36,284 nucleotides of DNA from Anaerolineales bacterium (GTDB lineage Bacteria; Chloroflexota; Anaerolineae; Anaerolineales; Villigracilaceae): positions 1-36,284 of the forward strand of contig JANWWK010000092.1 of NCBI GenBank assembly GCA_025056175.1, in the 5' to 3' direction. The translations under genes were made by a program, and so were the position numbers. Within the stretch, counting starts at the first letter, position 1; each line of letters opens with the position of its first letter. Positions 7,193 to 14,318 of this stretch are shown piece by piece. The notes under the pieces were generated by a model. That model searched no databases and was not told where the DNA came from. It saw only the letters and a list, made by a program, of their open reading frames with translations.

Positions 7193-9154
7193 ATGCCTGC
7201 CGATTTGCTCGCCCACACCCTCTTCGGGCAATACCGGCTCGAAGCCTTTGCAGCCCTTACACCGCAAGGGGAACTCTATCGCGCCTGGGACCTGCAAAAC
7301 AGCCGACATCTCGCACTCACTTTGCTCCCCCCGCAAATCACTGGCAATCCCGAAACCTTTCGCCAGCTGGATAGCCGCGCTTCGGTCCTCAAAAAACTGC
7401 GCCATGCCGGGTTACTCTCCTTTGCTGGCCTGGCACACGATGAAGCCCGCCTGGCTCTGCTCGAAGCATGGTGCGACGGCCCTACGCTGCGCGATGTCCT
7501 GCTTTCTAACCCTGGCCAGCCGCTCGGCGTACCAGAAATGCTCACCTATGCTAAAGCGCTGGCCGCCACGCTCGATTATCTCCATCTGCAAGGCTTTGTC
7601 CACACCGGCTTATGTCCAGAACGCGTCCACATAGACCGTGAAGGTCGCATCTTTTTGGGCGGGCTGGGGCTGAGCAAACGCAACGGAGAAATAGACTTTC
7701 AGCCCATTCTGCACCCGTACGCTGCGCCAGAACAGGTGCACCCTGCGCGGCTTTCGCCTGCCGCCGATATTTACGCTCTGGCGGCCCTGCTGTTTGAACT
7801 GCTCACCGGCCAACCGCCCGCCGATGAACTCACCAGCCCGCGCAAACTCAATCCATCCATTCCCGATTACCTGGCCCGCCTGATTCTACAAGGTCTTGCC
7901 AAACGTCCAACCGAACGATTCAACAGCGCAGGGGAATTTTTTCTGACCCTGTGTATGGGGGCCGGCCTACCGGCAGAAAGCATTCCCGAACGAGCCGGTC
8001 AGGAACGTGCTCCGGTCACCGCGCATCTCCTGCACACCTGGCATTACCTGCCGCCGCCGGTTGAAGTCGTCAGCGCGCCCATTCCACTCCGTCCTTTGGA
8101 AAAAGTGGGTACCCAGAGCGCAGTTGCCACACGCCCCAAAACCGATTTCTCCCGCTTCCTGCGTCCGGCGCTGATACTGCTCCTGCTGGCCGGAATTGGC
8201 CTGGCCCTGTGGCAAATTGAACCCGCCACCCCCTCTGCGCCCGTGCCTGCACAGAGTGTTGCCACTGCCACATCTGCCCTCTCCGGTCTGATTCAGGCCA
8301 CCCCTGCCCCCACACTCACTCCTTTGCCGGCGCCCACCGAAGCGCATGGCGGCAATATCGTCTTCACCTGCACGCGCGGCGATTTCAACCAGATTTGCAT
8401 GGTGCGCGCCGATGGACAAAACCTGCAACTGTTGACCAACACCACCTTTGCCCACAATTACTATCCGGCTTTTGCTCCTGGCGGCGAGGAAATCGTCTTT
8501 GCTTCCAACCGCGGCGGCACCTTCGACCTGTATCGGCTGGTGCTGAAAACCGGCGAACTGACACAACTGACGAACCGCATTGGCAACGTCCTCTCACCGA
8601 GCTATTCCCCCGATGGGCAGAAAATTGTCTTTGTCAATCGCGTGGGCGAAGGCCCCTCAACCATCTGGATTATCAACCGCGATGGCCTCAACCCACGACA
8701 GATATACCCGGCGCCCAACAATGTCGTGGCTGCCGCCTGGTCGCCAGATGGGAATACGATTGCCTATGCCATGTCAGTAGACCAGCCCAAAGAATTCGAG
8801 ATTTTTCTGATGAACCCCGATGGCACCAATCACCGCCGCATCAGCCGCGGGCTGTTAGGGATTGGCGGTTCGCTGGCCTGGTCGCCCGATGCCCGCTACC
8901 TGCTCATCTTTGCCGGCCCGCCAGGGGATAAAGACATTTACCGGCTCGAAGTCTCTAACGGTAATTTTCTGCGCCTGACCACCGGCGGCAACAACACCGC
9001 CGCCAGTTACTCTCCTGATGGAACGCAAATTGTCTTCAATTCTCTGCGGAATGACGGCCAGGCCGATTTATACATCATGAAAGCCGATGGGTCGGACTTG
9101 CGTCAGCTCACCAGCCATCCCGAACCCGATTGGCAGCCGCGCTGGGAAAAATAA
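7193..9154 (+). CDS. Ser/Thr pseudokinase - membrane helix - TolB-like propeller protein
   Basis: A 653-residue protein. Residues 10-255 follow the eukaryotic-type kinase fold: YAAPE (the APE motif, 176-180) and ADIYALAALLFELLTGQPP (subdomain IX) are clear. The catalytic residues are missing: the beta-3 lysine position reads LALTLL (Thr43), HRDLKPEN reads HTGLCPER (Asp to Gly139, Lys to Cys141, Asn to Arg144), and DFG reads GLG (Gly157). The glycine loop is also degraded. A membrane helix (about 323-342) and a Pro/Thr-rich linker lead to a C-terminal PD40/TolB-like beta-propeller (about 385-650) with repeated YSPDG/WSPDG blades, predicted to be outside the cell. It is probably a non-catalytic signalling or scaffold protein; this is inferred from residue loss. 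It is monocistronic as far as seen. Confidence 0.88.
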   Translation: MPADLLAHTLFGQYRLEAFAALTPQGELYRAWDLQNSRHLALTLLPPQITGNPETFRQLDSRASVLKKLRHAGLLSFAGLAHDEARLALLEAWCDGPTLRDVLLSNPGQPLGVPEMLTYAKALAATLDYLHLQGFVHTGLCPERVHIDREGRIFLGGLGLSKRNGEIDFQPILHPYAAPEQVHPARLSPAADIYALAALLFELLTGQPPADELTSPRKLNPSIPDYLARLILQGLAKRPTERFNSAGEFFLTLCMGAGLPAESIPERAGQERAPVTAHLLHTWHYLPPPVEVVSAPIPLRPLEKVGTQSAVATRPKTDFSRFLRPALILLLLAGIGLALWQIEPATPSAPVPAQSVATATSALSGLIQATPAPTLTPLPAPTEAHGGNIVFTCTRGDFNQICMVRADGQNLQLLTNTTFAHNYYPAFAPGGEEIVFASNRGGTFDLYRLVLKTGELTQLTNRIGNVLSPSYSPDGQKIVFVNRVGEGPSTIWIINRDGLNPRQIYPAPNNVVAAAWSPDGNTIAYAMSVDQPKEFEIFLMNPDGTNHRRISRGLLGIGGSLAWSPDARYLLIFAGPPGDKDIYRLEVSNGNFLRLTTGGNNTAASYSPDGTQIVFNSLRNDGQADLYIMKADGSDLRQLTSHPEPDWQPRWEK

Positions 9155-9233: not shown

Positions 9234-10196
9234 TCATTTGCTGACATGCGCCAGGCGCGGGTCAAGCGCATCACGCAGACCATCGCCAAGCAAATTAAAG
9301 GCCAGCACGGTAAGCATAATTGCAAAACCGGGAAAGAAAACCAGGTGTGGCGCAGTAAATACTTGATTGCGCTCTGCACCTAACATCGAACCCCATTCCG
9401 GTGTGGGCGGCTGCGCGCCTAACCCAAGAAACGAGAGCGCGGCAGCATCAAGAATAGCCGTGGCAATGCCAAGTGTTCCCTGCACAATCAAGGGGGTGAG
9501 CGCATTCGGCAAAATTCGCCCAAACAAAATGTGCGCTGTGCTACCACCCAGGGCGCGCGAGGCCGAAACATAATCCATCTCGCGGATAGAAAGCACACTG
9601 GCACGCACCACGCGGGCATACGCCGGAATCGAGACAATCCCAATCGCCAGCAAGGCGTTGATAAGCCCCGGCCCCAGCACAGTGACAATTGCAATTGCCA
9701 GCAGCAGCGACGGGAAGGCCAGCAAAACGTCCATCACGCGCATAATAGCGTTATCTAACCAGCCGCCAAAATAACCACCCAGCGCACCTAAAACCGTGCC
9801 AATCACAATCGCAAACGTCACTGTAGAAAAGCCCACCATCAGACTCAGGCGTGTTCCGTAGAGCAACCGGCTGAACTGGTCGCGGACGTTGCCATCAATG
9901 CCCATCAGGTGTTGTGGCTGGTCTGGCGGGCAACCCAGCAAATGAATACAAGGCGCCTGACGCATTTTTACATCTTCGATGCCAATCAGTACCTGGAGAG
10001 GGTCATACGGCGCCAGCCAGGGCGCCATGATGGCAATGAAAACCAGCAACAAGATAATTCCCATGCCCACCAGCGACGATTTGCGACGGAACAGGCGCTT
10101 CCAGGTAATGCGCCACAGACTGACCGATTCCAGCGAGAGCGCTTCAGCATCGAGTGCAGCAATTTGAGAAGGAGCAGAAGGGGTTGTATCACTCAT
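9234..10196 (-). CDS. Dipeptide/oligopeptide-type ABC transporter permease (DppC type)
   Basis: A 320-residue inner-membrane permease. The N-terminal OppC-type segment (WKRLFRRKSSLVGMGIILLLVFIAIMAPWL from about residue 32) precedes a six-helix core. The cytoplasmic EAA loop reads about SASRALGGSTAHILFGRILPN, and the C-terminal LSFLGLGAQPPTPEWGSML block is typical of the family. It starts two bases after the dppB-type stop, so the two are coupled. It works with the DppB-type permease and the binding lipoprotein encoded upstream. No ATPase gene follows, so the ATP-binding subunits must be encoded elsewhere or shared. The substrate (peptide, sugar or other) cannot be told from the permease. Confidence 0.93.
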   Translation of the reverse strand: MSDTTPSAPSQIAALDAEALSLESVSLWRITWKRLFRRKSSLVGMGIILLLVFIAIMAPWLAPYDPLQVLIGIEDVKMRQAPCIHLLGCPPDQPQHLMGIDGNVRDQFSRLLYGTRLSLMVGFSTVTFAIVIGTVLGALGGYFGGWLDNAIMRVMDVLLAFPSLLLAIAIVTVLGPGLINALLAIGIVSIPAYARVVRASVLSIREMDYVSASRALGGSTAHILFGRILPNALTPLIVQGTLGIATAILDAAALSFLGLGAQPPTPEWGSMLGAERNQVFTAPHLVFFPGFAIMLTVLAFNLLGDGLRDALDPRLAHVSK

Positions 10197-10198
10197 GG

Positions 10199-11281
10199 CT
10201 AGTTCAGTCGAATGCGCGGGTCAATGTAGGCGTAGGAAATATCCACAATCAGGTTGAGGACGACAAAGAAAATGGCAATTACCACCGTAAACCCCTGCAC
10301 AACGGCATAATCGCGGGCGGTGATGGCATCGTAGAGGATGCGCCCCACCCCCGAAAGGCCAAAAATCGTTTCGGTCAGCACGGCGCCACCCAACAGCGTG
10401 CCAAGCGAAAGCCCCAGCACCGTTACTATCGGCAAAAGTGCATTCCGAAAAGCGTGCCTGAGGATGACTTCGCGGTAACGCACGCCTTTGGCACGGGCGG
10501 TGCGGATGTAATCCTGTCCCAACACTTCGAGCATGGAGGAGCGCGTCATGCGAGCAATCAGCGCCATCGGAATCGTCCCCAGGGCCAGGGCTGGCAGCGT
10601 CAGGTGGCGGAGCGAATCACGCAAGAGCGCCCCATTCCCCGTCAGCAAGGCGTTCAGGATGTTCAGGCGCGAGAGAAATTCAGGCAGGGCGCGTCCCAAC
10701 CCGCTTTCCGGCAGGGTGAGATTCCAAACGGTGTAGAACGGCGTGGTATCCATTCCAGCACTGACCCGGCCCGAAGGCGGCAGCCAGAACGGCGTATCTT
10801 TCAACAGCAAAGAAAAGACATACGCCAGCATCAACCCCAGCCAGAAAACCGGCATCGAGACGCCAATGTTGGCCCACACCATCGTCAAGACGTCTATCCA
10901 TGAGTTATGACGGATAGCAGAGATGATTCCAAGCGGAACGCCGACCAGAATGCTCACAAACAAGGCCGCAAAACTCAACTCGACTGTGGTGGGCAGGCGT
11001 TCGACCAGCAGACGCGTAACAGGCTGACTGAAACGGATGGAATTGCCGAAATCGCCCCGCGCTACATCGCGCAGATAGATGGCAAATTGTTCGGGAATGG
11101 GGCGGTCGAGGCCTTTTTCGCGCAGGAAGCGGTCGCAGGTTTCTTTGGTGGCTTTTTCACCGAGCAAGGCACGGCACGGGTCCCCCGGAATCATGCGAGC
11201 CAGGGCAAAAGTCACCAGCAAGATGCCAATCAGGACGGGGATGGAAGCAAGCAAACGCCGCAAAATGTATTGAAGCATCAT
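10199..11281 (-). CDS. Dipeptide/oligopeptide-type ABC transporter permease (DppB type)
   Basis: A 360-residue permease starting MMLQYILRRLLASIPVLIGI, the classical DppB N-terminus. It has MIPGDP followed by a periplasmic stretch, helices, and the EAA loop IRTARAKGVRYREVILRHAFRNALLP. It ends in AYIDPRIRLN, also typical. I start at the ATG at 11281 (a second ATG follows at 11278). A longer reading to 11332 would begin inside an intercistronic hairpin and is rejected. The protein is slightly longer than usual because of an insert between helices (roughly residues 180-230). It lies downstream of the binding protein and is coupled to the DppC-type gene. Confidence 0.92.
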   Translation of the reverse strand: MMLQYILRRLLASIPVLIGILLVTFALARMIPGDPCRALLGEKATKETCDRFLREKGLDRPIPEQFAIYLRDVARGDFGNSIRFSQPVTRLLVERLPTTVELSFAALFVSILVGVPLGIISAIRHNSWIDVLTMVWANIGVSMPVFWLGLMLAYVFSLLLKDTPFWLPPSGRVSAGMDTTPFYTVWNLTLPESGLGRALPEFLSRLNILNALLTGNGALLRDSLRHLTLPALALGTIPMALIARMTRSSMLEVLGQDYIRTARAKGVRYREVILRHAFRNALLPIVTVLGLSLGTLLGGAVLTETIFGLSGVGRILYDAITARDYAVVQGFTVVIAIFFVVLNLIVDISYAYIDPRIRLN

Positions 11282-11304
11282 GGGCAAGCGATTCCTTTTG
11301 TGAA

Positions 11305-11338
11305 CACGGGATGACGGTACAACCTCCGTCATCCCGTG
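11305..11338 (-). other. Intercistronic hairpin between binding-protein and permease genes
   Basis: A perfect 13-bp stem (CACGGGATGACGG with its complement, 11305-11317 and 11326-11338) and an 8-base loop. On the transcribed strand no T-run follows, so it is unlikely to be a full terminator. Hairpins here commonly protect the upstream message, giving more binding protein than permease. Confidence 0.7.
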
Positions 11339-11364: not shown

Positions 11365-13101
11365 TTACTTGCCGGGCTTCTTCATCAGACCCCACAGGTA
11401 ATCATAGTATTCCCAAACGCCAGTGTTGCCCGCATGGGTGGGTGCGGCGATGTTGAGACCCATGTTGAATGTAGCGACCACGTCGGCGGAGGTGAAATCG
11501 GTGCCATCATGGAATTTGACCCCCTTCCGCAACGTACAGGTCCACACCGTCAGGTCGGCATTCGGCTCACAGGATTCAGCCAGGACCGGGACGACCGCCG
11601 TACCGTTGACTTCATAACCGTAGAGGGCCTCCATCACCTGGTCGCAAGCGCGCAGCGATTCGCCATCGGTCTCATCGGCACAGAACAGGCTGATGGGTTC
11701 CGCATTCTGCATGAAGATGAACACATCGCGCCCGCCGGGGTCGGAAACCGCAAATTGTTCATTGGTCAGCGGGCTGGCCTGCGGGTTGGTCACATCGGCG
11801 CGGTAAGCCGTGCCAGAACCGCCATGCGCCACCGGCACCATCGGCACGAGTTCACGGATGGCGTTGTTGGCGGCGACATAGAAGGGTTCGGCTTGTTTGG
11901 GGTCAGCAATTTGTGCGCCTTTCACCAATTGTTCATAGATTTCAGGGAAGGGGTTACCAAACTGCGGGTTCGAGGCCCCAAAGTGGAAATCCAGGAAGTT
12001 GGTGATGTGCGGATAATCGGCGCCCCAGCCCAGAAAGTACAGGCCGTCCAGTTTACCGGTGGTGGAGGCTTCGATGAACGCGCCCGATTCCATCACGACG
12101 ATTTCGGCTTCGATGTTCAGGTTTTCTTTCAATTGCGCCTGCACATCTTGGGCCACATTCGCCACCTGAGGCAGGTAGCCGCGCACCACGTCACGGTAGT
12201 AAAGCTTAGTCTTGAAGCCGTTCGGGAAACCCGCTTCGGCCAGCAGTTTGCGGCCTTCTTCAGGGTTGAAGTCGTACCAGGGGTCACCCACGCAGCCGTT
12301 GGGGATGGAGCAGGGAGTAAAATGCGTGGCCACTTCGGAGCCGGCGGGATAGAAGTTCTTGACGATGCGTTGACGGTCAATCCCGTAGGCAATTGCCTTG
12401 CGGACGCGCACGTCATCCCAGGGCTTGAAGGTGTTGGTCATGCCGATATAGAAGATGTTCAGCGCGGGGCGTTCAACCAGCACCAGGTTGGGGTCTTTTT
12501 TGACGACCTCGAAATCGGATGGGCCGACGTTATCAATGCCATCCACGGTACCGGCTTGCAGTTCGAGCAGGCGTCCGGCCGCTTCGGATTGCCAGCGGAT
12601 GACCAGCGTTTCGGCAAACGGCTTTTGACCCCAGTAGTTCTCAAACGCTTTGAAGGTTACGCTTTCGCCGCGTTTCCATTCCGAGATTTTGTAGGGCCCG
12701 GTGCCAACCGGCTTTTCCAGGCCTTCGCTGGTGCGCTTGCCATCGGCGGCAGTGCGTTCCAACCATTCGGAGGGATAGATGGCAAAAGGCGAGAAGGCAA
12801 TTTTCGAGAGGAAGGCCGGGTCTGGTCGGCACAGCGTGAATTTGACGGTGTAGTCATCCACTGCTTCGATGGCCTGGAAAAGACCAGCGTAATCACCGTT
12901 ACACTCTTCCTTGGGAACGACAAGTGATTTGCCGTCGAAAGTAGCAATCGGAATATCCGGAACGGGGGTGGGTTCGGTGGGTTGTTCGGGTGCCTGGGTT
13001 GGTTCCGCAGGGGCAGGAGTGGCAGCTCCACCACCACAGGCGGCCAGCACCAATCCGGCCAGTACGAACAACGAAAGCAAGGCGTATAACGAACGCTTCA
13101 T
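11365..13101 (-). CDS. Family 5 (dipeptide-type) ABC substrate-binding lipoprotein, circularly permuted
   Basis: A 578-residue lipoprotein: signal peptide with lipobox LAAC (Cys22), a Pro/Glu-rich linker (28-50), then SBP_bac_5 segments. Their order differs from DppA/OppA. AVDDYTVKFTL (80-90), EKPVGTGPYKISEW (129-142), VRKAIAYGIDRQRI (233-246) and LGWGADYP (357-364) come first. The segment that is normally N-terminal (QNAEPISLF..., ALYGYEV, VVPVLAES, WTCTLRKGVKFHDG, SADVV) is at residues 465-542, near the C-terminus. Nothing seems missing, so this is a permutation rather than a truncation. The ATG at 13101 has a strong GGAGGAG; an upstream reading to 13380 is rejected. It feeds the DppB/DppC permeases downstream. 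The substrate is unknown. Confidence 0.9.
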   Translation of the reverse strand: MKRSLYALLSLFVLAGLVLAACGGGAATPAPAEPTQAPEQPTEPTPVPDIPIATFDGKSLVVPKEECNGDYAGLFQAIEAVDDYTVKFTLCRPDPAFLSKIAFSPFAIYPSEWLERTAADGKRTSEGLEKPVGTGPYKISEWKRGESVTFKAFENYWGQKPFAETLVIRWQSEAAGRLLELQAGTVDGIDNVGPSDFEVVKKDPNLVLVERPALNIFYIGMTNTFKPWDDVRVRKAIAYGIDRQRIVKNFYPAGSEVATHFTPCSIPNGCVGDPWYDFNPEEGRKLLAEAGFPNGFKTKLYYRDVVRGYLPQVANVAQDVQAQLKENLNIEAEIVVMESGAFIEASTTGKLDGLYFLGWGADYPHITNFLDFHFGASNPQFGNPFPEIYEQLVKGAQIADPKQAEPFYVAANNAIRELVPMVPVAHGGSGTAYRADVTNPQASPLTNEQFAVSDPGGRDVFIFMQNAEPISLFCADETDGESLRACDQVMEALYGYEVNGTAVVPVLAESCEPNADLTVWTCTLRKGVKFHDGTDFTSADVVATFNMGLNIAAPTHAGNTGVWEYYDYLWGLMKKPGK

Positions 13102-13191
13102 ACAACTCTCCTCCTGAGAGAATGGGAAAATACGGAGCAGGATACCGGGGCGTTTTCTCCTCCTCCGGCGCGGCGAGAGCCATGCAAAAGT

Positions 13192-13219: not shown

Positions 13220-14318
13220 GCGGCATTCCTCTCCCAAACAGCCGCGCGCGCTTCGAGCCGGAGGGCCATAGGCCCGGAATTTGCGTTCCACAGTGTGGAC
13301 ACTGACCGCTCTCGCTGATGTGATAGGCTGTGACCACATAGCCACGCCGCTTCACCAGCAGGTGGTTGCAGTGAGGGCAATAAGTCGATTCGTAATCTTC
13401 TACCCTCCCCGGCAGATTGCCGGCATAGACGTAGTTCAACCCAGCCTCGCGTCCGATTTCGGCAGCGCGAAGCAGCGTTTTGGGTGGAGTGTAATCGTGG
13501 TCAGTCATCTTATAATCCGGGTGGAAGGCGGTCACGTGCCAGGGAATATCCGGTGAAACCGAGCGCAGGAAACGCGCCGCTTCGTAGAGTTCCTCGTTGC
13601 TGTCGTTAAAGCCTGGCACAATCAGGGTCACCACCTCCACCCACAAGCCAAGCGCGTGCGCCCGTTCGATGGTCTCCAGCACGTTCTTCAGCACGGCACC
13701 CAGTCTGCGATAGTTTTTCTCCTGCATGGATTTCAAATCCACCTTATAGGCATCCAGCCAGGGGCGCAGATAAGCCAGCACTTCGGGGGTGGCGTTGCCA
13801 TTGGAGACGAACGCGCACATCAGCCCGGCGGCTTTGGCTTTTTTGAAAATCGAAACGCTCCATTCGGAAGTAATCAACGGCTCGTTATAAGAAGAGACCA
13901 GCACATCGGCCTGGTAGCGCCTGGCGAGGCTGACCATCTCATCTGGTGTGACGCGCCGCACCAGGTTGGCCGAAACCGACGAGGCCGGGTCACGCATGGC
14001 CTGGGAGGTCAACCAATTTTGGCAATAATCGCAATGAAGGTCACATCCCAGCATCCCAAACGTCAGCGCGGTGGCACCGGGCAGGACGTGCGAAAAGGGT
14101 TTCTTCTCAATTGGGTCAGCCTGCAGAGCAGCCACATAGCCCCACGGGACGCGCAGTTCTCCCTCGTGGTTGAAGCGCACCTGGCAAATCCCCCGTTTGC
14201 CCGGACGGATAAGACAGCGATGCGCACAAGCTGTACAACGAAGATTGCCATTTTCTAATTTTTGATACAGTTCCCCCGAAACGGTCATTTCATCCAGAAA
14301 CATCGCCAGGTCTTGCAT
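13206..14318 (-). CDS. amrS: AmmeMemoRadiSam-type radical SAM enzyme (AmrS)
   Basis: A 370-residue radical SAM protein. The [4Fe-4S] motif is C92-x3-C96-x2-C99 (CDLHCDYC) in the GMLGCDLHCDYCQNW block. It is preceded by an N-terminal cysteine cluster (C28, C31, C35, C45, with PGKRGICQVR) and followed by SSYNEPL, CAFVSNGN, YKVDLKS and VPGFND blocks. The C-terminus has a two-CxxC zinc ribbon (YCPHC and CPHC, about 55 residues from the end). This matches the AmrS family, often found with MEMO1 and AMMECR1 domain proteins; neither partner is seen here. The reaction is not settled. The start has an AGGTGA site. It is probably transcribed from its own promoter in the 229-bp upstream gap. Confidence 0.9.
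   Translation of the reverse strand: MQDLAMFLDEMTVSGELYQKLENGNLRCTACAHRCLIRPGKRGICQVRFNHEGELRVPWGYVAALQADPIEKKPFSHVLPGATALTFGMLGCDLHCDYCQNWLTSQAMRDPASSVSANLVRRVTPDEMVSLARRYQADVLVSSYNEPLITSEWSVSIFKKAKAAGLMCAFVSNGNATPEVLAYLRPWLDAYKVDLKSMQEKNYRRLGAVLKNVLETIERAHALGLWVEVVTLIVPGFNDSNEELYEAARFLRSVSPDIPWHVTAFHPDYKMTDHDYTPPKTLLRAAEIGREAGLNYVYAGNLPGRVEDYESTYCPHCNHLLVKRRGYVVTAYHISESGQCPHCGTQIPGLWPSGSKRARLFGRGMPLAIP

Follow-up and report, generated by a model that had tools for sequence, protein, structure and literature searches.

The 36,284-nucleotide contig JANWWK010000092.1 of an Anaerolineales bacterium (assembly GCA_025056175.1; the window in what follows) encodes P0001, a 578-residue protein of the SBP_bac_5 family of ATP-binding cassette (ABC) binding proteins. 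The segments of P0001 stand in an order rotated relative to that of Escherichia coli DppA. Our results support the conclusion that P0001 is a circularly permuted SBP_bac_5 protein, and that the N-terminal part of the ordinary protein has been displaced to form its C-terminal segment, which is not an added partial domain, because no equivalent of this part exists at the N-terminus. Taken as a whole, P0001 is probably a permuted, lipid-anchored cluster C receptor for di- or small peptides that would feed a DppB-DppC permease.

The order of segments in P0001 lies far beyond chance. Pfam PF00496 (SBP_bac_5) matches the protein with 280.5 bits against a gathering cut-off of 32.4, in two stretches, the main one placing profile positions 65-365 at residues 75-378. 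Curated membership is a matter of score only, making P0001 a member with a permuted order; profile annotation masks the rearrangement, Pfam showing a plain SBP_bac_5 match. We located the rotation with phmmer: residues 74-450 align with DppA (1dpe) 123-501 and residues 492-568 with DppA 35-117 (i-Evalue 5.8e-6), while for GbpA (3m8u) residues 71-428 align with 122-480 and residues 468-566 with 12-117 (4.1e-5). The same arrangement is seen with a hidden Markov model (HMM) made from 38 ordinary Chloroflexota SBP_bac_5 proteins (the ordinary-order HMM), which places model positions 150-519 at residues 74-447 (independent E-value, iE, 2e-88), followed by positions 28-141 at residues 440-555 (iE 4.5e-25). 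At the N-terminus this HMM matches only the end of the signal peptide (positions 1-43 at residues 1-41), and no second copy of the N-terminal part was found there. A first-pass annotation of this DNA had proposed the permutation from six short segments: VGTGPY (residues 132-137), VRKAIAYGIDR (233-243), QNAEPISLF (465-473), ALYGYEV (492-498), TLRKGVKFHDG (523-533) and SADVV (538-542). All six are in the places and order that it gave, and phmmer and the HMM show the rotated order. It had added that a second partial domain, together with an N-terminal equivalent, would refute the idea; the HMM found no such equivalent.

The predicted structure is that of a single, confidently folded chain (AlphaFold2 with 71 sequences; mean predicted local distance difference test score, pLDDT, 90.4; predicted template modelling score, pTM, 0.85). 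VIA-align matched the model to 3m8u (Z 29.8), 5f1q_A (Z 29.8) and 1dpp_A (Z 29.4), and the top Foldseek matches were likewise DppA and GbpA, with Yersinia DppA (5f1q) at E 1.2e-26. On 1dpp_A (507 residues), 390 residues were aligned with a root-mean-square deviation of 2.5 Å, placing model residues 51-456 on DppA 97-507 and leaving DppA 1-96 and model residues 457-578 unmatched. The structural aligners used keep chain order; a permuted protein is therefore expected to match the C-terminal part of DppA, sparing the start of DppA and the end of the model, and this is what we observed. The comparison of structures suggested in the first-pass annotation thus holds for the core, where the model has the two-lobe, DppA-like fold of cluster C, with both ends left over. 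By sequence, the displaced piece runs up to DppA 117 and the core starts at DppA 123, whereas by structure the core starts at DppA 97; because the two core starts differ, the exact cut falls somewhere in DppA 97-122. Folded alone, residues 452-578 gave a poor model (pLDDT 60.6, pTM 0.47), while in the whole chain the 10-residue blocks of the displaced segment reach 83-98, dropping to 79 at the very end. From this contrast we read the segment as requiring the rest of the fold. Together with the order of segments and the lack of an N-terminal equivalent, this agrees with the permutation first proposed. Among the best 60 of 99 Protein Data Bank (PDB) chains matched by the family profile, we found no solved structure with the permuted order: in all 60, at least 101 residues of the chain precede the core.

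The permuted order is shared by a large family. Among 301 Chloroflexota genomes, 40 contain a match at E 1e-60; two of these (G150 and G245) have the ordinary order, leaving 38, of which one (G227) has a match that spans query residues 8-431 only. The ordinary-order HMM reveals the permuted order in 30/30 proteins (L011-L040, P0001 included) and also in L206; the 29 relatives from other genomes are 50-79% identical. Scanning one genome per GTDB species yielded at least 511 relatives, of which the best 80 were kept; these loci, chosen by likeness to the permuted alignment and drawn partly from the same genomes as the first set, are no fair sample of SBP_bac_5, and 79 of them have the permuted order. 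The one locus left unscored (L124) has a frame, as taken, that stops after 219 residues, with a tblastn match that spans query 70-574. All of these best 80 bear Chloroflexota names, including the isolate Bellilinea caldifistulae GOMI-1 (L071), and we take the names to be correct as to phylum; as this covers the top 80 of no fewer than 511 relatives, the family could also occur beyond Chloroflexota. Among viral contigs, 57 stretches matched a pattern and no relative was found among them; in plasmids, the C-terminal third matched 1665 records, and five of the 20 listed were examined, all five with the ordinary order. The survey of homologues proposed in the annotation, which mentioned similar proteins in Chloroflexota, therefore yields a permuted family in that phylum. 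Conservation was read from alignment A2 (71 members), which takes in 70 of the 80 contig loci, ten truncated, fused or lipobox-less ones being excluded; 71/71 members exceed the PF00496 gathering cut-off.

To place the family among its relatives, we rotated the permuted sequences to the ordinary order and computed a tree (a branch with Shimodaira-Hasegawa-like approximate likelihood-ratio support of 100 separates 26 permuted from 55 ordinary rows). With midpoint rooting, the permuted clade is nested among ordinary SBP_bac_5 proteins and adjoins L043, L152, L185 and L190 (support 93). This is a quick tree that drew warnings for a number of long branches among the ordinary rows and for rows of unusual composition, including the permuted L042, L037 and L040. 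It omits eight near-duplicate permuted rows (L013, L015, L016, L018, L024, L030, L035, L039) and nine ordinary ones (L179, L183, L186-L189, L197, L198, L202), and L173 was removed by a length filter. A single permutation event behind this family (type 1) fits best with these sequences. No duplication intermediate was found among the relatives examined. One candidate, L033 (814 residues), was rejected: its front domain, recognized by reading the sequence only, is of the amino-acid-binding type, and four similar fusions gave SBP_bac_3. In these four (L070:519-2927, L079:5074-7530, L114:4999-7518, L120:4732-7527), Pfam places an amino-acid-type SBP_bac_3 domain before the permuted SBP_bac_5, with two binding proteins per chain; L120 also has a haem-binding Pfam match, Dehyd-heme_bind (E 2.8e-7), before its SBP_bac_3 domain.

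The new N-terminus carries a conserved pair of cysteines. Cys67 and Cys91 stand on either side of its first hairpin, and both are present in 70/71 members of A2 and in 33/33 of the genome set. The rotated alignment starts at residue 70, so that the comparison with ordinary rows covers Cys91, not Cys67: Cys91 is a cysteine in 26/26 permuted and 0/55 ordinary rows. The new N-terminal arm is probably clamped by a disulfide between Cys67 and Cys91. Cys511 and Cys522 co-occur as disulfide partners do (both in 65 sequences, neither in six), and Cys264/270 and Cys474/486 are paired in 22/26 and 25/26 permuted rows, respectively, the latter pair being found also in the ordinary row L043. Genome G104 has a second permuted paralogue, which is divergent (L042:3236-4975, minus strand) and is without three of the four cysteine pairs.

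The N- and C-termini of DppA lie near each other in the N-lobe. In the mechanism that we propose, a short link (residues ∼448-458) would connect the ancestral termini, and the loop ahead of the strand AIEAVDDYTVKF (DppA ∼97-122) would have been opened to give a new N-terminus; the fold would otherwise be the ordinary DppA/OppA flytrap. The receptor would be anchored by lipid at Cys22, tethered by a linker, and would capture di- or small peptides, with Arg307 holding the peptide carboxylate and Asp362 the amino group. The neighboring DppB-DppC permease would then receive the peptides, its scoop loop (Glu59-Lys60) reaching into the cleft, with power supplied by DppD/DppF-type ATPases encoded elsewhere in the genome and the Cys67-Cys91 disulfide holding the N-terminal arm in place. 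The anchor is predicted from the N-terminus: the lipobox LAAC occupies residues 19-22, and Cys22 is present in all 71 aligned sequences, as befits a bacterial lipoprotein. The signal peptide and lipobox are thus where the first-pass annotation had put them. Behind the lipobox comes the linker, with pLDDT below 50 at residues 23-40.

The ligand is the weakest part of this explanation. Most likely, judging from its residues, P0001 is a Dpp-type receptor for di- or small peptides. A small-peptide ligand is suggested because the residues that bind the ends of dipeptides are conserved in 71/71 sequences: Arg307 and Asp362, placed by ungapped stretches of alignment, are both invariant in this set. 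In E. coli DppA the matching Arg/Asp pair binds both peptide ends, and reversing both residues abolishes binding (PMC12136057). P0001 is not DppA itself, because it reaches only 185.3 bits with the NCBIfam DppA equivalog NF043070, for which the cut-off is 1005. The earlier label of a dipeptide-type protein is a fair working name that does not extend to identity with DppA.

The neighboring permease genes fit an importer of the Dpp type, with DppB- and DppC-like permease genes adjacent at 11332-9234, both scoring below the NCBIfam DppB and DppC cut-offs. The best NCBIfam model for the first permease is Opp2B, a nickel-transporter model (318.6 bits of 350 needed), followed by DppB (302.8 of 590); for the second it is GsiD (305.9 of 484), followed by DppC (293.7 of 483). 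Of the solved structures, E. coli DppB gives the best match to the first permease, over residues 19-375 (E 7e-81), with OppB next (2.9e-53). Its Glu59-Lys60 aligns opposite Glu41-Arg42 of E. coli DppB, scoop-loop residues that pair with Arg383 and Asp436 of DppA in the E. coli complex (PMC12136057). A DppB-like gene is the next gene in 76/80 contig loci; of the other four, L085 and L114 have 6 kb of room, L122 has 1.1 kb and L107 has 112 bases. A DppD-like ATPase gene directly follows DppC in 19/61 loci with room. The operon in the window contains neither DppD nor DppF, and DppD-like genes are found elsewhere in the same genome (L041).

Several observations weigh against parts of the explanation that we favor. 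All 12 nearest ordinary relatives tested share the Arg and Asp, and hence the pair does not fix the ligand; in the wider set (n = 33) only L042 differs, with Asn at position 307, and no permease is present in the 8-kb locus of that paralogue. No Dpp-specific NCBIfam cut-off is reached by the binding protein, far below its own, or by either permease, the first of which fits nickel-type Opp2B best. The operon in the window has no ATPase: past the end of the DppC-like gene at 9234, the next gene is a plus-strand kinase. As for the fold, the superposition is confined to the core by aligners that keep chain order, so that residues 457-578 and DppA 1-96 are outside it. A Foldseek search with the isolated segment, whose poor model gives the result little weight, returned SBP_bac_5 proteins at the top of the list and no match at E ≤0.001 (best 0.078).

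The chief competing explanation keeps the permuted fold and changes the ligand to heme, glutathione, metal-chelator complexes or sugars, as in other cluster C proteins. We consider it unlikely, though it is the strongest of the competitors: cluster C is diverse, GbpA, which binds glutathione, and HbpA2, to which none of the ligands tested for the family bound (PMC3295651), are among the top structural matches, the binding protein falls under the DppA cut-off, and the permeases score best against nickel-type Opp2B and glutathione GsiD, below cut-off in all cases. However, Arg307 and Asp362 are invariant across A2, whereas HbpA2 carries Arg in place of Asp408 (PMC3295651), and the closest solved structure to the first permease is DppB. 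A different concern is that P0001 might be a truncated ordinary protein to which a separately folding partial N-terminal domain has been added, or might be fused with a neighbor. Fusions can yield such architectures, and some relatives do have an additional SBP_bac_3 in front; yet the core is without its own N-terminal part in 30/30 proteins, conserved residues occur throughout the C-terminal segment, and this segment is predicted well only within the whole chain. We rejected this reading, which is highly improbable, on the lack of an N-terminal equivalent by HMM and on the poor prediction of the isolated segment. Finally, the window comprises an entire contig, one of 95 in a draft genome, and a rearranged contig or a frameshift could in principle produce a spurious order. 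We rejected such an artefact of assembly or annotation, to which we give almost no credence: the same order recurs in 29 other genomes and in 79/80 contig loci, a named isolate's among them.

The genome that encodes P0001 contains a second permuted type. The type-2 SBP_bac_5 gene (L041:6160-8751, plus strand, equivalent to G000:C74:15159-17750) encodes 864 residues with a lipobox, and the second half of the profile comes first: Pfam places profile 148-361 at residues 72-318. In 22/22 type-2 rows, two of which (L143 and L148) stem from one place in one genome, the ordinary-order HMM matches positions ∼232-510 first and ∼110-237 later, as in L131, where the core piece at residues 57-362 is followed by a piece at 521-726 (iE 3.4e-6). 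The later piece is weak: its iE is below 0.001 in 10/22 rows and 0.004-0.043 in the others. Profile-profile comparison, run without L139 and L148, aligned type-2 residues 66-412 with ordinary 238-526 (E 3.7e-27); a further, short match (58 columns, Prob 96.9, E 1.5e-10) lies within residues 412-770 and corresponds to ordinary 111-170, and the C-terminal ∼90 residues have no match in the ordinary profile (E 0.46). Type 2 occurs in 21/201 genomes at E 1e-30. It resembles P0001 in being an SBP_bac_5 protein with a lipobox, with the C-terminal half first and an operon with permeases, and differs in being much longer and in its cut, near HMM position 230 versus ∼145 in P0001; beyond the signal peptide, the best BLASTP match between the two is 25 residues long (E 0.015). 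Because the cuts of types 1 and 2 differ, at least two rearrangements took place. A quick tree of the shared core, computed without L143 and L148, parts the two types; under the approximately unbiased (AU) test on the same set, a joint clade is not rejected (p 0.568), the joint tree being 5.5 log units higher. Two cut points are thus evident, and the AU test would allow a joint clade as well as two separate origins from ordinary ancestors. The type-2 gene adjoins an ordinary SBP_bac_5 gene (L041:3868-5838), and permease and ATPase genes come after it. Four distant relatives of type 2 (L144-L147) have no obvious lipobox; in the two whose full sequences were inspected, L144 and L145, the chain finishes with a hydrophobic stretch and a basic tail, as if anchored C-terminally.

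It is instructive to compare P0001 with known systems. It resembles E. coli DppA of the DppABCDF transporter (cluster C; 1dpp, 1dpe) in core sequence, predicted fold and end-binding Arg and Asp, and the two loci share adjoining DppB- and DppC-like genes and the acidic-basic scoop pair. Unlike DppA, the P0001 family has the rotated order, a predicted lipid anchor and, in most members, four cysteine pairs; unlike in the E. coli Dpp system, the binding protein is far below the DppA cut-off, and DppD and DppF are not adjacent in the window. The ordinary Chloroflexota proteins L043, L044, L152, L185 and L190 are near the family in the tree and have the same Arg and Asp, and L043 and L044 adjoin a DppB-like gene; in contrast to the permuted proteins, they have the ordinary order and no Cys at 91, 264, 270, 511 or 522, L043 keeping Cys474 and Cys486. 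A precedent for the permutation comes from another cluster: TpMglB-2 (Tp0684) of Treponema pallidum is a naturally permuted cluster B glucose-binding lipoprotein, for which the designation 'Type Ic / Cluster Bc' was proposed (PMC4990184). Its relatives occur in other treponemes and in Gram-positive bacteria, and its authors raised a possible adaptation of the topology to membrane anchoring (PMC4990184). Both proteins are natural circular permutants and membrane-tethered ABC binding proteins in which strands from near the N-terminus have moved near the C-terminus. In contrast to TpMglB-2, the P0001 family belongs to cluster C, is cut at a different point and probably has a different ligand, and the TpMglB-2 permutation needs a fourth hinge crossing. 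P0001 does not fall within Type Ic / Cluster Bc: it is an SBP_bac_5 protein, and the structural matches listed are cluster C.

Descriptions of ABC binding proteins that are circularly permuted in nature are rare, TpMglB-2 being the sole precedent that we found in the material accessible to us. Searches of the open-licence literature turned up no description of a permuted SBP_bac_5 protein, which is weak evidence of absence, as subscription papers were mostly not covered. One joint reading of these results, possible although we doubt it, is that permutation of the cluster C flytrap took place on two or more occasions in the lipid-anchored receptors of Chloroflexota, with two different cut points, as an adaptation that places the tether on a different face of the N-lobe, and that the Cys67-Cys91 clamp co-evolved with the new N-terminus. 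If this were true, the adaptive double permutation would define a 'Cluster Cc' parallel to the 'Cluster Bc' of Treponema. A large permuted family, with ordinary relatives in the phylum and a second cut in the genome, makes the effect of the lipid tether's position on delivery to the permease testable, and naturally tolerated cut points are useful in the design of biosensors from peptide-binding proteins.

Table 1. Features of the P0001 locus, in window coordinates.
Feature	Position	Strand	Basis
Gene of circularly permuted SBP_bac_5 lipoprotein P0001	11365..13101	minus	578 aa from ATG at 13101, with stop codon to 11365 included
Shine-Dalgarno-like AGGAGGA, 7 bases upstream of ATG	13109..13115	minus	sequence
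Signal peptide and lipobox LAAC, residues 1-22, predicted lipid-anchored Cys22	13036..13101	minus	sequence; Cys22 in 71/71
Cys67 codon, first of Cys pair at new N-terminus	12901..12903	minus	Cys in 70/71
Cys91 codon, second of that pair	12829..12831	minus	Cys in 71/71
Residues 70-455, part from DppA ∼119-122 to C-terminus	11737..12894	minus	phmmer, VIA-align, HMM
Arg307, DppA Arg355 equivalent (precursor Arg383), candidate contact of peptide carboxylate	12181..12183	minus	phmmer alignment, 71/71, PMC12136057
Asp362, DppA Asp408 equivalent (precursor Asp436), candidate contact of peptide amino group	12016..12018	minus	phmmer alignment, 71/71, PMC3295651 and PMC12136057
Residues 456-578, displaced N-terminal part (about DppA 1-117), at C-terminus	11368..11736	minus	phmmer, HMM
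DppB-like permease, 32 bases past SBP_bac_5 gene stop, true start maybe Met18 or Met19	10199..11332	minus	Pfam, similarity
DppC/GsiD-like permease, directly after DppB-like gene	9234..10196	minus	Pfam, similarity

The P0001 gene lies on the minus strand; the first-pass annotation had named none. Its reading frame is open back to a TTG at 13380, which would give 671 residues; we chose the ATG as the start because the signal peptide and the Shine-Dalgarno-like site belong to it. A plus-strand open reading frame (11434-12927, 497 residues) overlaps the gene and is probably a chance product of codon usage. Beyond the permease genes, the plus-strand gene at 7193-9154 encodes a fusion of a protein kinase domain with PD40 propeller repeats of the WD40-like kind.

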